From Solimonas sp. K1W22B-7 (GTDB lineage: Bacteria > Pseudomonadota > Gammaproteobacteria > Nevskiales > Nevskiaceae): 64,000 nt of DNA. The translations under genes were made by a program, and so were the position numbers. Under the pieces are notes generated by a model. That model did not search any database. It was not told where the DNA came from and saw nothing but the letters and a program-made list of their open reading frames with translations. The stretch covers positions 2,666,001 through 2,730,000 of the forward strand of contig NZ_CP031704.1 of the NCBI RefSeq assembly GCF_003428335.1, written 5' to 3'. Shown here one piece after another: positions 17,125 to 38,328 of this stretch. How positions within the stretch are numbered: position 1 is the stretch's first letter; each line of letters starts with the position of its first letter.

Positions 17125-17218
17125 TACCTGGGCTCCGTTCTTCGACCGGCCGGGATGCTACGCCTGATGCCGGTCGACGGACAGTCTTCAGGGCCTGTCA
17201 AATTGTCCCAGTGCTCGC

Positions 17219-32592: not shown

Positions 32593-34068
32593 TCACCCAG
32601 GCGAAATCGGCTGCACCAGGATCCACAACCCCGCCACCGTAAACAGCATCATCAGCACCAGCATCGGCAACTGGCTCAGCACCGCCTTGCCGCGCCCCGG
32701 GAACAGGCGCAGTGCCTCGACGTGCGCGAGGTACACGCTGACGATGTGACCGAACAGGATCAGCCCCACCTGCGTGTGCCAGACCAGGCCCATCTCCGGC
32801 AGGAACGGCGCGCGGAACCTGCCCGCGGTGCCGAACAGGTTCCAGCCCCAGCCGAAGGGATCGGACAGCAAGCTGAAGATCTTCACGCCCTGGGTCAGGA
32901 TCAGCGTGTAGTAGTGCGTGATGTTGTAGACCAGCACGATCGGCAGCAGCGAGAAGGCGAAGGCCAGGGCCAGGTGCTTCATCGAATGCGGGCTGCGCGT
33001 CAGTGCCTTGGCCAGGGCGATGAAGAACAGGTACACCGCCAGGTACAGGAACGGCGACAGCAGCAGGCACAGGGTTTCGTAGGCCAGGTACCAGGGCCGC
33101 AGCTGCACGAACAGGTAGATCGGCGACTGCCCCAGCCACTCGCGCAGCAGGCCGGTGGAATCGCCCCAGAACAGCATGTACCAGGGCCGCGTCACATGCA
33201 GGCCGTCGTAGGCGGTGGACGAGAGCATGAACAGGATGAACAGCAGCAGGCTCCAGTGCTCGGCACGTTCCTGCAGCAGGCCGGTAAAGGGCGCGCGCAG
33301 CAGCAGGCGGCCGCGCTCGCCGGGCCGTGTCGCGGGGCGATAGTCCAGCGGTGCCATGCGCGCCACCAGGCGCAGGAACACCGCGAGGAATTCGCAATAG
33401 CGGAACCACGCCGCCGAGCCGAACAGCCAGACACCGGCGAGGTTGATGCCGCTGTAGATCAGCAGCAGCAGCGCCAGCGAGAACGGCCGCACGTGGAAGA
33501 ACAGCTCCAGCCAGATCAGCGCCATGTAGAAACCCAGCGCCGGCCAGTAGGCCAACGCCGGCGGATAGGCCAGGCGCCCGCGCTCGTAGCCGGGAAACAC
33601 GCGGCCGATGCCGCGCGCGATCAGCCGCCAGGGATTGAGCAGCGCATAGAGATCGCCCGCCGCCGCGCAGAGGTAGCTGAAGCCGAGCAGGAACACGACC
33701 CAGACGAAGGTCATGCTGAAGTTGCGGTAGGGGTCGCGGCTGCCGAAGAAGCCGGTGGCCAGGCACAGCAGCAGGCACAGCAGGCTCAGGCCCTGCAGCC
33801 AGGGCAGCATGCGACGAAACAGCCTGGCCGCGATGCCGTCACTGATGTCGCGCGGCGGCCGCGAGGCCGTGGCGGCCGACACCGTGACGAAGTAGCCCAC
33901 CACCAAGAAGGACAGCAGCAAGGCAGCCGCGGCGCCGTAGAGGTACATCCACAAGGGCACCGGCAGGTTGTACATCCGGCCGAAGGAATGCGCCTGCGCG
34001 GCGCAGGGAATGAAAAGCGCCGCCAGGATGGCGGCGCTGGTGAATCTCCGGCGGCTACGCAGGGACAT
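32593..34068 (-). CDS. Polytopic membrane protein, unknown function
   Basis: A 491-residue inner-membrane protein with about ten to twelve hydrophobic segments after an N-terminal signal-like stretch. Its mature start reads HSFGRMYNLPVPLWMYLYGA. Other landmarks are DPYRNFSMTFVWVVF, GDLYALLNPW, and YNITHYYTLILTQG with His residues placed in membrane helices. I recall similar proteins in Proteobacteria and Actinobacteria sometimes labelled fenitrothion hydrolase, but I cannot confirm this and the label may be wrong. The start ATG overlaps the stop of the upstream metallohydrolase lipoprotein by one base (TGATG), so the two are cotranslated and may work together at the envelope. Confidence 0.72.
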   Translation of the reverse strand: MSLRSRRRFTSAAILAALFIPCAAQAHSFGRMYNLPVPLWMYLYGAAAALLLSFLVVGYFVTVSAATASRPPRDISDGIAARLFRRMLPWLQGLSLLCLLLCLATGFFGSRDPYRNFSMTFVWVVFLLGFSYLCAAAGDLYALLNPWRLIARGIGRVFPGYERGRLAYPPALAYWPALGFYMALIWLELFFHVRPFSLALLLLIYSGINLAGVWLFGSAAWFRYCEFLAVFLRLVARMAPLDYRPATRPGERGRLLLRAPFTGLLQERAEHWSLLLFILFMLSSTAYDGLHVTRPWYMLFWGDSTGLLREWLGQSPIYLFVQLRPWYLAYETLCLLLSPFLYLAVYLFFIALAKALTRSPHSMKHLALAFAFSLLPIVLVYNITHYYTLILTQGVKIFSLLSDPFGWGWNLFGTAGRFRAPFLPEMGLVWHTQVGLILFGHIVSVYLAHVEALRLFPGRGKAVLSQLPMLVLMMLFTVAGLWILVQPISPG

Positions 34069-36260
34069 CAACGGTTGACCGTCTTCTCCCACATCTGGAT
34101 GTAGGCCTCGGCCGAGTTGTAGAGCGCGTCCAGGCCCTCACGCCCGCCCTCGAGACGGATCTCCTCGACGTAGTCGGCGACCATGCCGTAGTGGGCCGTG
34201 CCCACTTCGTCGATGTTCCAGGTCTTGCCGCTCTCCGGAACCGTCTGCAGATTGAACTTCAGCGGCGCGATGCCCTTGAACTGCGGACCCCACTCCGGTC
34301 CCTTGAACAGGGTGAAGGGGTACTGCAGCGGCGTGCTGCCGGCACCCCGCGGACCGGCGCGGTCGGCAATGCCGTTGGCGTCCATGCCGTAGCCCACCGC
34401 CATCGGCTTGCCCGCCGGCCAGATCGGCTTGAGCTTCTGGATGAACTCGACGTGACCCTTGCCGTTGGGCTTGAAGGGATAGATCAGGCCGCCCAGCGCG
34501 AGGATGTCGCGGGCCTGCTGCACCGAGATGCCGCCATGACCGCCATGGGCAGAGATCAGCGGATAGGTCGGGGTCTGCTGCTTGGCCATGTCGATCATGT
34601 CCTGCTTGATCGACAGCTCGGCATGGTCGATGTCGAGGATGAACTTCTTGTCCATCAGCTTCTGCACCGTGTAGCGGCCCAGCTCGGTCATGCCGCGAGC
34701 GTTGCACTGGCGCTTGTCCGGCGGGTACAGCGGCACCGTGCCGCCCAGCGTGCCGAGCACGATCTGCGTCAGCGGATCGTTGCCGGTGCCGGGGATCGCC
34801 GTGGTCATCCTGGCGCCGGCGTCGTAGAAGTAGGTCTCGCCTTCGCCGCCATCCGGGCAGTCGTAGGTATCCCAGAAGTGACCCGTGCCCCAGAAGCCGA
34901 CCAGGTTCAGCACCAGTCCGTCGAAGATGCCGGTGCCGCCCAATGCGCTGTCGACGTCGTGGTACGGAAACAGCTCGCGCACGCCCAGGGCGTAGACCTC
35001 GTCGATCTGGCGGTCGATGTCTTCCCGGGTGCAGCCCACCTGCTCGCCCAGGCCCAGCACCGACTTGGTCGTGCAGTTGAACAGGTTGGAAAACTCCAGG
35101 CCGGGCACCACGGCGAGCTTGCCGTCGTTGATCACCCGGCGCGCCTCGGCCGGGCTGCCGACGATGCGGAACCAGCCCTTGCCCGGGCCGCCTTCCTGTG
35201 CATCGACGTAGTCCTGCAGGGTCTTGAGGTACTTTACCTGGCCGATGCCCAGGTTCATGTCGTTGCAGTCGTAGGTCGGTGCTTCCGGCCTGACCGTGGT
35301 CATGTAGATGCGGGCCACCTCGCAGAGCGCGGCGATGTTGGTGCCCTCCGAGACCATCACGCGCAGGCCGGCCTTCCAGGCGCGCTCGACCCACTTGTAG
35401 TACATGGCCTGGTGCAGCTGCGACTGGTACGCCGGCCAGTCGACGAAGTCGGGCCAGCCCTGGGTGTCGTGCGTCACCAGCGGCGTCAGGTCGAGGATCA
35501 GGGCCTCGGGATCGCGGATGCCGTTGGGGCCGTGATAGGCCTCGCAGTTGTCCAGGGCCTCCGGTGCGCCGAAGCGGTTGTACATCTGGCCGTACATCAC
35601 GCCGCCGGCGGAAGGGCCGACCGGATGCGTGCCGTCCGACATTTCGTGGCCCATCGCCATGTGCGTGTGCACTTCGGCGAAGCCGACCACGGGCTTGTTG
35701 ATGCCACTGCCCCTGTAGGTCTGGCCGACGACGTCGTCGCTGATCTCCGGGTAGGCGGTGCAGCCGCTCGCCGGCACGAAGTTGAAGGTCGAGGGCGCGG
35801 CGGCCATCACCAGCTTGCCGGCGCTGTCCGTGGCCAGCGCCTGGCCGGCCGAGGCCGAGCTCACCGTGTACTGGCCCGGCGCGGTGGTGTCGATGGTCCA
35901 GTCGGAGCCGTCGACCGCGCGGGTCACGGTGCCCACCCCGCCGCCGTCGGTGGTCAGGATCGCCGCATCCTTGGCATGGAACAGGTAGCGGCCCAGGGCC
36001 GTGGGCTTCATGTAGAAGTGCTCGGCGGAGGCCGCGTCGGCCGCGGTGGCGGAGTAGCCGGCGCCGTCGCGCTGGATGTAGCTGTTGCCGGCCGACTTCA
36101 GCACGTAGCAGTGGTTGGCCAGGTCGTAGCGCGTCTTCGGCGCCGCATTCGCCGCGGGATTGCCCGCGCCATTGTCGCCGCTGACCGGGCTGGAATTGCC
36201 GCAGCCCCCCAGGGTTGCCAGTGCCAGTACCGCCAATGCCGCCGATTTGTGTGAAGCCAA
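34068..36260 (-). CDS. Exported lipoprotein with amidohydrolase-like metal site
   Basis: A 730-residue protein with a lipoprotein signal (hydrophobic residues about 7-19, lipobox LGGC at about 17-20). A beta-rich N-terminal part of about 150 residues resembles a carbohydrate-recognition or fascin-like domain. The hydrolase part begins with GFAEVHTHMAMGHEM, the usual first metal-binding HxH strand. It continues with IDHAELS, LISAHGGHGG and a late AVGYGMDANG Asp motif, consistent with an amidohydrolase or membrane-dipeptidase fold. Its substrate is unknown. It is translationally coupled to the downstream 491-residue membrane protein. A 266-bp structured repeat lies 90 bp upstream of its start. 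Confidence 0.78.
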   Translation of the reverse strand: MASHKSAALAVLALATLGGCGNSSPVSGDNGAGNPAANAAPKTRYDLANHCYVLKSAGNSYIQRDGAGYSATAADAASAEHFYMKPTALGRYLFHAKDAAILTTDGGGVGTVTRAVDGSDWTIDTTAPGQYTVSSASAGQALATDSAGKLVMAAAPSTFNFVPASGCTAYPEISDDVVGQTYRGSGINKPVVGFAEVHTHMAMGHEMSDGTHPVGPSAGGVMYGQMYNRFGAPEALDNCEAYHGPNGIRDPEALILDLTPLVTHDTQGWPDFVDWPAYQSQLHQAMYYKWVERAWKAGLRVMVSEGTNIAALCEVARIYMTTVRPEAPTYDCNDMNLGIGQVKYLKTLQDYVDAQEGGPGKGWFRIVGSPAEARRVINDGKLAVVPGLEFSNLFNCTTKSVLGLGEQVGCTREDIDRQIDEVYALGVRELFPYHDVDSALGGTGIFDGLVLNLVGFWGTGHFWDTYDCPDGGEGETYFYDAGARMTTAIPGTGNDPLTQIVLGTLGGTVPLYPPDKRQCNARGMTELGRYTVQKLMDKKFILDIDHAELSIKQDMIDMAKQQTPTYPLISAHGGHGGISVQQARDILALGGLIYPFKPNGKGHVEFIQKLKPIWPAGKPMAVGYGMDANGIADRAGPRGAGSTPLQYPFTLFKGPEWGPQFKGIAPLKFNLQTVPESGKTWNIDEVGTAHYGMVADYVEEIRLEGGREGLDALYNSAEAYIQMWEKTVNR

Positions 36261-36350
36261 GACCTTGTCTCCCCGTCCGTTTTATTACCGGATCATGAAG
36301 AGCCGATCCTAAGTCCCCGGTGCCCTGTTGATCTAGGGTAGAAAAGACTC

Positions 36351-36616
36351 AGGGCCTGTCACCCATTCCCCGATCGCTGCGACGGAGGCCGCCTGGGTGC
36401 AGGGCTATGTCCCGAGGCGCGCCGTGTACTTGATGTACATCAGCGACTCGGGACGCCGCCCTGCGCCCAGGCGGTCCCGCCCTTCGGGTGCCCCCGTCTT
36501 TGCCGCCATGCTGTGTTGCTCGTCAGTCTCTTATTCCCGATAAGCGACCTCCTCGCGCCTTGCCTGGCGGCAAATACGGGGGCATCGCAGCGACCGGGGA
36601 ATGGGTGACAGGCCCT
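36351..36616. repeat. 266-bp multi-stem inverted-repeat element (MITE-like)
   Basis: The ends are 32-bp inverted repeats with one mismatch (36351-36382 and 36585-36616, beginning AGGGCCTGTCACCCATTCCC). Inside are a second hairpin with 28-bp arms (36389-36416 and 36447-36474, loop holding TGTACTTGATGTACA), a short CCCG/CGGG hairpin at 36476-36488, and a third with 20-bp arms differing at one base (36489-36508 and 36565-36584). Nested this way, the strand can fold as a cloverleaf. It has no protein-coding frame of note and no obvious target duplication. It fills the gap between the PhoD stop and the upstream region of the metallohydrolase gene. Confidence 0.85.
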
Positions 36617-36621
36617 AGCCT

Positions 36622-38328
36622 TCAAAGCCTTGTCAGCACAGGCGAGCCCGCCGGCACCTCGAAGCGCGCCAGTTCCAGCGAAGGATTGGCCAGGGGCAGC
36701 TGGGCCAGCAGGCCGCGCATCGCCACCGTGCAGCGCTCCGGGGTGAATTCCACCTCCAGCCAGCCGTTGCGCGTGCCGTCCCAGTGCGAGAAATGCGGAT
36801 TGTTGGCGGTGATGTTCGGCGCCTGCAGGAACAGGTTGGCCGGCGGATTGAGCGTGGCGATCGGCGTCGCGGCGGCACAGCTGGTGATGAACTCGGTGCC
36901 CACGGCCGGGCCATCCGGATAGCCGTCGCGCAGGGTGGCGGCGCCGAAGGCGTGCAGGTCGCCGGCCAGTACCACGAGGTTGGGCGTGCCCTTCAGGGCC
37001 GCCAGCAGTTCCGCGCGCTCGGCGGTGTAGCCGTCCCAGTGGTCGGTCTCGTAGACCGCGGGCGGGGCCTGCGCGATGCGGATCGGCGAGAACGGCACCG
37101 GCAGGCCCAGCACCCGCCACTGCGCCGCGCTGCCGCGCAGCGTATCCAGCAGCCAGCGTTTCTGCGCCGCGCCCAGCATCGTGCGGCCGGCCTCGTCGCG
37201 TGCGGCGCACTCGCTCTCCAGCACCAGCTGGCGCTGGCCCAGGTTGCCCTCGCCGCAGGGATGGGGGCTGCGGTGCATGCGCAGTTCGGTCAGCGCCAGT
37301 TCCACCAGCCGGCCGAAGCGGAAGCTGCGCTCGGCTTCGAGCACGTCGGGAAAGGCCGCAGCGGGGCGGTAGGCAACGCGCACCGGCAGGTAGCGGTACC
37401 AGGCATCCAGCGCCTCGCGCACATAGGCGCTCATCGCCACCGGATCCTCGTCCAGCGGGTGGCCGGGGCCGCGCGGGCGCTCGCCGTCGAAGTAGAGATC
37501 GTTGGCGAACTCGTGATCGTCGAAGGTCGCCAGCAGCGTGTGCCGCTCCAGCAGGGCGCGCAGGTTCGCGTCGCCGCGGTGCGTGCGGTAGATCGTGAAC
37601 AGGTCCTCGCGCGTGCTGGCGTAGGAGCCACCGGAGGGCAGTGCGATGCGGCGCAGCGGCGAGATGGCGCTTTCGTAGATGAAGTCGCCCAGGTGAACGA
37701 CATAGTCCGCCTCGGCCCGCGCCATTTCGCCGAAGGCGTGGAACCAGGCCAGGGTGTAGTCCTGGCAGGAGGTCACCAGCAGGCGCAGGCTGGACAGGTC
37801 TTGTTCCGGCAGCGGCAGGGTGCGCAGGCGCCCGGCACGGCTGGAGACGCCGTCATGGGCGAAGCGGTACCAGTAGAAGCGGTTGGGCTGCAGCAACCCG
37901 TCGGTGTCGAGCTTGAGCGTGTAGTCCTGCTGCGCGGACAGGCGCGAGGCCGGCAGCGCACCGGCCGCGACCGGGCGGGTGAAGGCCTCGTCCTCCGCCA
38001 GCTGCCACAACAGGTCCTCGCCGCTGCGCAGTGCCTCCGGCGCCAGGCGCGTCCACAGCACGGCGCCGTGCGGCGTGGGGTCGCCACTGGCCAGGGAACA
38101 GGGAAACACCGCGGAGGCTTCGCCGCTGCCCAGCGGCGGCAGCGCCACCACAGAAGGCACTGCGCGCGGTACTTGTTCGCCGCCCGCGGCCCCCTCCCCG
38201 CCCGCCACCGGCGCGGAGCTGCCGCAGCCGGGCAGCAGCCCGGCCCCGCCCAGGCCGGCCATGAGGGCCAGCAGCTGACGGCGCGAAAGGGTCAGCGGTG
38301 ATCCGGCGGAGTTGGGGGTCTTGGCCAT
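36622..38328 (-). CDS. phoD: PhoD-like alkaline phosphatase, Tat-exported
   Basis: A 568-residue phosphodiesterase/phosphatase-like metalloenzyme. The N-terminus has a SRRQLLALMAG twin-arginine-type signal followed by LLPGC, so it may also be lipidated. The PhoD domain starts with an FPCSLASGDPTPHGAVLWTRL segment near residue 75. Metal ligands are seen in VHLGDFIYE, TFDDHEFAND and LVVLAGDLHAFG. It should release phosphate from esters outside the cytoplasm. The stop is six bases from the 266-bp repeat. A low-phosphate (Pho) box was not found by eye. Confidence 0.9.
   Translation of the reverse strand: MAKTPNSAGSPLTLSRRQLLALMAGLGGAGLLPGCGSSAPVAGGEGAAGGEQVPRAVPSVVALPPLGSGEASAVFPCSLASGDPTPHGAVLWTRLAPEALRSGEDLLWQLAEDEAFTRPVAAGALPASRLSAQQDYTLKLDTDGLLQPNRFYWYRFAHDGVSSRAGRLRTLPLPEQDLSSLRLLVTSCQDYTLAWFHAFGEMARAEADYVVHLGDFIYESAISPLRRIALPSGGSYASTREDLFTIYRTHRGDANLRALLERHTLLATFDDHEFANDLYFDGERPRGPGHPLDEDPVAMSAYVREALDAWYRYLPVRVAYRPAAAFPDVLEAERSFRFGRLVELALTELRMHRSPHPCGEGNLGQRQLVLESECAARDEAGRTMLGAAQKRWLLDTLRGSAAQWRVLGLPVPFSPIRIAQAPPAVYETDHWDGYTAERAELLAALKGTPNLVVLAGDLHAFGAATLRDGYPDGPAVGTEFITSCAAATPIATLNPPANLFLQAPNITANNPHFSHWDGTRNGWLEVEFTPERCTVAMRGLLAQLPLANPSLELARFEVPAGSPVLTRL

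Follow-up and report, generated by a model that had tools for sequence, protein, structure and literature searches.

The window, the whole 64,000-nt stretch of Solimonas sp. K1W22B-7 DNA analyzed here, contains a 266-bp non-coding element next to two genes of the minus strand. Only 5 bp separate its end from the stop codon of a gene for a PhoD-like phosphatase, and relative to the start of the next gene the element is upstream (Table 1). An earlier note, made from the letters of this DNA, had described the element as a nested palindrome. We find its coordinates to be exact and its architecture to be as described, with outer arms of 32 bp each that differ by a single base and constitute terminal inverted repeats with one mismatch. 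The element has no complete ORF of at least 80 aa and hence no transposase gene of its own. The further statement that almost no unpaired spacer is left is slightly overstated, as internal loops lie near the tips of both hairpins, and it is in these loops that the family shows its most conserved motif. The predicted DNA fold has an energy of -117 kcal/mol, as against -55.7 +/- 3.8 for 200 dinucleotide shuffles, none of which folds as well (z = -16.3), in agreement with the claim that such folding is beyond chance. With RNA parameters the element reaches -200.6, and the best of 480 other 266-nt segments in the 64 kb reaches -151.

Table 1. Parts of the cloverleaf element and its neighboring genes (positions in the window)
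Feature	Position	Strand	Description
Entire element	36351..36616		266 bp
Left outer arm	36351..36382	+	32 bp; AGGGCCTGTCA = IS5-like terminal inverted repeat, about 12 variable nt, TCGCTGCGA
Right outer arm	36585..36616	-	pairs with left arm; the one mismatch is A.C
Hairpin 1	36383..36479	.	internal loop and tip TGTAC..GTACA
Central small hairpin	36480..36488	.	9 bp, CCC-TTC-GGG, between the two long hairpins
Hairpin 2	36489..36584	.	class-wide consensus tip is that of hairpin 1, inverted
Conserved 5' internal-loop motif of hairpin 2	36505..36522	+	GCCATGCTGTGTTGCTCG; class consensus GCCATGCGGCGTTGCTCG
Conserved 3' internal-loop motif of hairpin 2	36552..36568	+	CTCGCGCCTTGCCTGGC
Left junction dinucleotide	36350..36351	.	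CA in this copy; TA expected
Right junction dinucleotide	36616..36617	.	TA
Gene for PhoD-like phosphatase	36622..38328	-	
Next gene	34068..36260	-	

Copies, insertion sites and candidate transposases

The 5.37-Mb chromosome carries about 35 copies, many of full length and 79-95% identical; there are about 15 matches in each of three congeners and fewer in other genera of the family, the exact copy counts resting on search tables. When 24 genomes of the same order but of other families were searched at the DNA level, no copies were found. Among named organisms, Solimonas fluminis and Stagnimonas aquatica are the closest by protein. For the end motif AGGGCCTGTYA the count is 71, as against four for a reversed control pattern. 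Copies fall into size classes of 50-56 (outer arms alone), 176-188, 264-271, 315-338, 366 and 416 bp; TCGCTGCGA and TCGCAGCGA also form near-direct repeats, and the 55-bp form would fit a deletion between the two. The check proposed in the earlier note thus recovered many copies with covarying stems rather than a lone copy lacking covariation. A solo AGGGCCTGTCA end without a partner is seen at positions 17190-17200 of the window, and the genome has more such solo ends, many of them after YT.

The flanks of 73 complete elements mostly place the element between YT and AR (CT/AG 25, CT/AA 8, TT/AA 5, TT/AG 3), such that most have TA on both sides, the window copy deviating at its left. The cases of the form TTAG...CTAA fit a TA duplication and do not fit a 4-bp duplication. 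Synteny at the orthologous site of the window copy is broken in the congeners, and hence other sites were used for comparison: five insertion sites are without the element in all three congeners. At one of these, presumably of the folP/glmM type, two of the three congeners read the intact CTAG target GGGCTAGAGAG, where K1W22B-7 has CT and AG separated by the element. Many copies are located at gene 3' ends or shortly past them, and a simple ORF analysis placed 11 of 27 exactly on a TAG or TAA stop codon; as the first base of the element, which follows TA, is G, insertion would restore the stop codon.

IS5-family insertion sequences have inverted repeats that match the AGGGCCTGTYA ends. A congener (G003) has an IS5-family element (NF033580) of about 806 bp with two overlapping ORFs, TA at both sides, and the ends GGGCCTGTTAACACTAAC and GGGCACGTTAACACTAAC. 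Related IS5-family elements carried by plasmids of Enterobacter, Pseudomonas, Polaromonas and Variovorax terminate in identical or almost identical sequences, which adjoin CTAG; the sharing between the cloverleaf element and these insertion sequences is limited to the outer 11-17 nt. From the many copies, the IS5-type ends, the YTAR/TA flanks and the empty sites in congeners, we conclude that the element is a MITE, as the earlier note had suggested in speaking of one moved by a transposase encoded elsewhere. Its movers are very probably IS5-family transposases, judging from these ends and flanks. An IS5 (DUF4096) partner was looked for in the K1W22B-7 genome and none was found, so that current mobility there is putative. 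When the end pattern was used to look for autonomous elements of 0.8-3 kb bounded by the ends of the cloverleaf element, none was present among the matches listed except nested IS630 and IS5 elements.

Two other types of mobilizer were considered and rejected. The IS630 family also duplicates TA, and in a relative (G017) two AGGGCCTGTTA ends enclose an IS630-family element (L137:526-1679). However, all five copies of this IS630 have their own ends (TACTAACC), the one in question being merely nested at TA within a 50-bp palindrome of the cloverleaf element's family, and the IS630 of the K1W22B-7 genome has unrelated ends; a MITE of the IS630 family is thus exceedingly unlikely. With regard to the earlier note's suggestion that a relaxase-like enzyme might recognize the DNA structure, one HUH family was searched for, the Y1/RAYT transposases. 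A REP-like element moved by a Y1/RAYT (HUH) transposase that recognizes the folded strand would be consistent with a hairpin bearing conserved mismatches and with the 11 Y1_Tnp matches in the K1W22B-7 genome, but none of those 11 genes is flanked by the element. Moreover, the symmetric ends, the TA on both sides and the IS5 partner argue for a DDE transposase, making this origin very unlikely.

Distribution and ends across Gammaproteobacteria

A covariance model (R1) of the cloverleaf of about 267 bp gave matches in 63 of 274 genomes drawn evenly from the class Gammaproteobacteria, covering 55 genera and 53 families. Many of these matches are of full length (264-285 bp), and at most seven candidates per genome were scored with R1, so that the copy numbers obtained there are lower bounds. 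Named hosts include Azotobacter, Halomonas and Methylophaga plasmids; searches of phages, E. coli and viral contigs returned nothing matching. Across the class the stem sequences have been largely replaced, with the pairing retained. The loop motifs are present in 45/46, 46/46, 40/46 and 42/46 representatives, as against 29%, 35%, 5% and 9% in shuffles. At consensus level, the tip of hairpin 2 is that of hairpin 1 in inverted form (z = 10). The central loop occurs in two orientations: 54 sequences have TTC/TCC, and 13 have its reverse complement, GAA/GGA.

Most of the distant copies have GGGCCTGTT-type ends; others have AGAGCCTGTCTGTG, AGAACCTATCTCA, AGGAATCTCTGATT, GTGTCCTGTCTCC and yet more types, all around one body. 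In Leptospira, an 863-bp IS5-family element flanked on either side by TA has ends that match the AGAACCTATCTCAAAAAT of the AGAACCTATCTCA-ended copies, a correspondence with a blast E of 2 that was judged from ends and flanks together. A search of plasmids with the AGAGCCTGTCTGTG end yielded no insertion sequence. On the simplest reading of these sequence comparisons, one and the same body has become attached to different IS5-type ends, depending on the lineage.

Pairing in DNA or in RNA

Covariation in the stems is strong. Among congeners, 41 of 103 pairs display at least two Watson-Crick types and 95% of the cells are Watson-Crick, and among 40 Nevskiaceae copies 76 of 94 pairs have changed on both sides. 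The earlier note had offered a structured RNA as one possible identity, and a mobile RNA whose cloverleaf is selected as a transcript (e.g. an mRNA-end stabilizer, an RNase III substrate or a regulatory RNA) would be compatible with this covariation, with the conserved unpaired motifs, and with the many copies at or just past gene 3' ends, which read-through transcription would cover. RNAs tolerate G.U intermediates, and in the RNase P RNA of the same genomes the G.T and A.C types of mismatch number 40 and 8. In the element they number 45 and 41, or 41 and 40 if the opposite strand is used to derive the structure (Fisher p = 0.00035 and 0.00029 for the two structures against RNase P RNA); hence, neither strand has an excess of G.U, and the changes in pairing do not pass through it. 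At the level of the class the two types are again balanced, with 57 G.T and 52 A.C. The inverted form of the central loop likewise speaks against a transcript, and Rfam yielded no credible match to any described family. We therefore disfavor the structured RNA, which we consider improbable, and take the near-equality of G.T and A.C to mean that the pairing is kept in DNA. Thus, covariation alone is no proof of RNA, and here the ratio of G.T to A.C separates the two cases.

The pattern suggests that the process keeping the pairing is probably template switching, which is known to maintain hairpin pairing in DNA and to invert loops (PMC8794818). Passages of the literature describe it as homogenizing inverted repeats and maintaining hairpins without G.U intermediates (PMC8794818; PMC8604942). 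A purely passive palindromic MITE, the stems of which are kept perfect by template switching alone and the body of which has no function, would accord with this homogenizing action and with the changes from one Watson-Crick pair to another with few intermediates. Yet passive correction should erase the internal loops, whereas their motifs and the length of about 267 bp have been retained across 53 families; we thus regard a wholly passive element as rather unlikely. The family offers a natural data set of many copies for studying how DNA hairpins keep perfect pairing, be it by template switching or by selection.

A proposed history and comparison with known elements

We consider it likely that the element is a non-autonomous MITE with IS5-type ends used in trans, an old cloverleaf body, stems recopied at the DNA level and a tip motif under selection. 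Under this proposal, an IS5-family transposase would recognize the ends in trans and insert the element at the TA within YTAR targets, often stop codons, with duplication of the TA. The body, comprising the outer stem, hairpin 1, the small central hairpin and hairpin 2, would be an old conserved cloverleaf to which lineages have joined differing IS5-type ends. Its stems would stay near-perfect despite turnover of their sequence because each arm is copied anew from the other at the DNA level, presumably by intrastrand template switching. The internal-loop motif repeated at both hairpin tips may be held by selection, its function probably being the binding of a protein to extruded or single-stranded hairpins; the element thereby hints at a putative protein that reads folded DNA. 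More tentatively, the cloverleaf might possibly be an independent, ancient mobile DNA module, recognized by a protein in its folded form via the duplicated tip motif, that persists throughout Gammaproteobacteria by adopting the ends of whatever IS5-type transposase is available.

The usual view of MITEs is that they are remnants of insertion sequences that decay and have a narrow distribution; in the cloverleaf MITE a complex shape and length are kept over a bacterial class while stems turn over and ends differ. The T-shaped terminal repeat of parvoviruses, with two internal hairpins on an outer stem, resembles it in architecture alone. The IS5-family insertion sequences with GGGCCTGTTAACACTA ends (E. 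cloacae pIncA CP071789, P. aeruginosa pWTJH2 and a Polaromonas plasmid) share the outer 11-17 nt and the CTAG/TA surroundings, but they code for a transposase, measure about 800-830 bp and are without the cloverleaf body. MITEPsy1 of Pseudomonas syringae, an IS5-type MITE, is likewise non-coding, with inverted ends, CTAG or YTAA targets and a presumed derivation from the IS5 family; it differs in its 100-bp length with 18-bp ends, its reported 4-nt duplication and its restricted distribution, and no cloverleaf body is described for it (PMC3189936). Correia/NEMIS, RUP, ERIC and similar bacterial MITEs are also short mobile palindromes with TA at their ends, but these are single hairpins of about 100-200 bp with a limited host range, for which comparable covariation or exchange of ends is not reported in PMC2229807. 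The CIR repeats of Caulobacter and Brucella have two hairpin arms with a linker and a structure conserved between species, but are about 110 bp long, lack terminal inverted repeats and have GANTC in the loop (PMC2229807), a distinction that we draw from their description. We found no earlier description of the cloverleaf element in the open-access literature, and a search of published sequences with its end found nothing.

Certain copies display further peculiarities. Three (L024, L021 and L070) have an additional hairpin of about 50 bp with GCGACATTGAGTCGC in hairpin 2, and L024 has it in hairpin 1 too; this may be a second mobile hairpin lying within the element. One copy (L006) lies within a GC-rich hairpin (AAAACGCCGCCC...GGGGCGGCGTTT) resembling a terminator. 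In a fragmented genome (G020) the element is found at contig ends in several places (L102, L152), which suggests near-identical recent copies.
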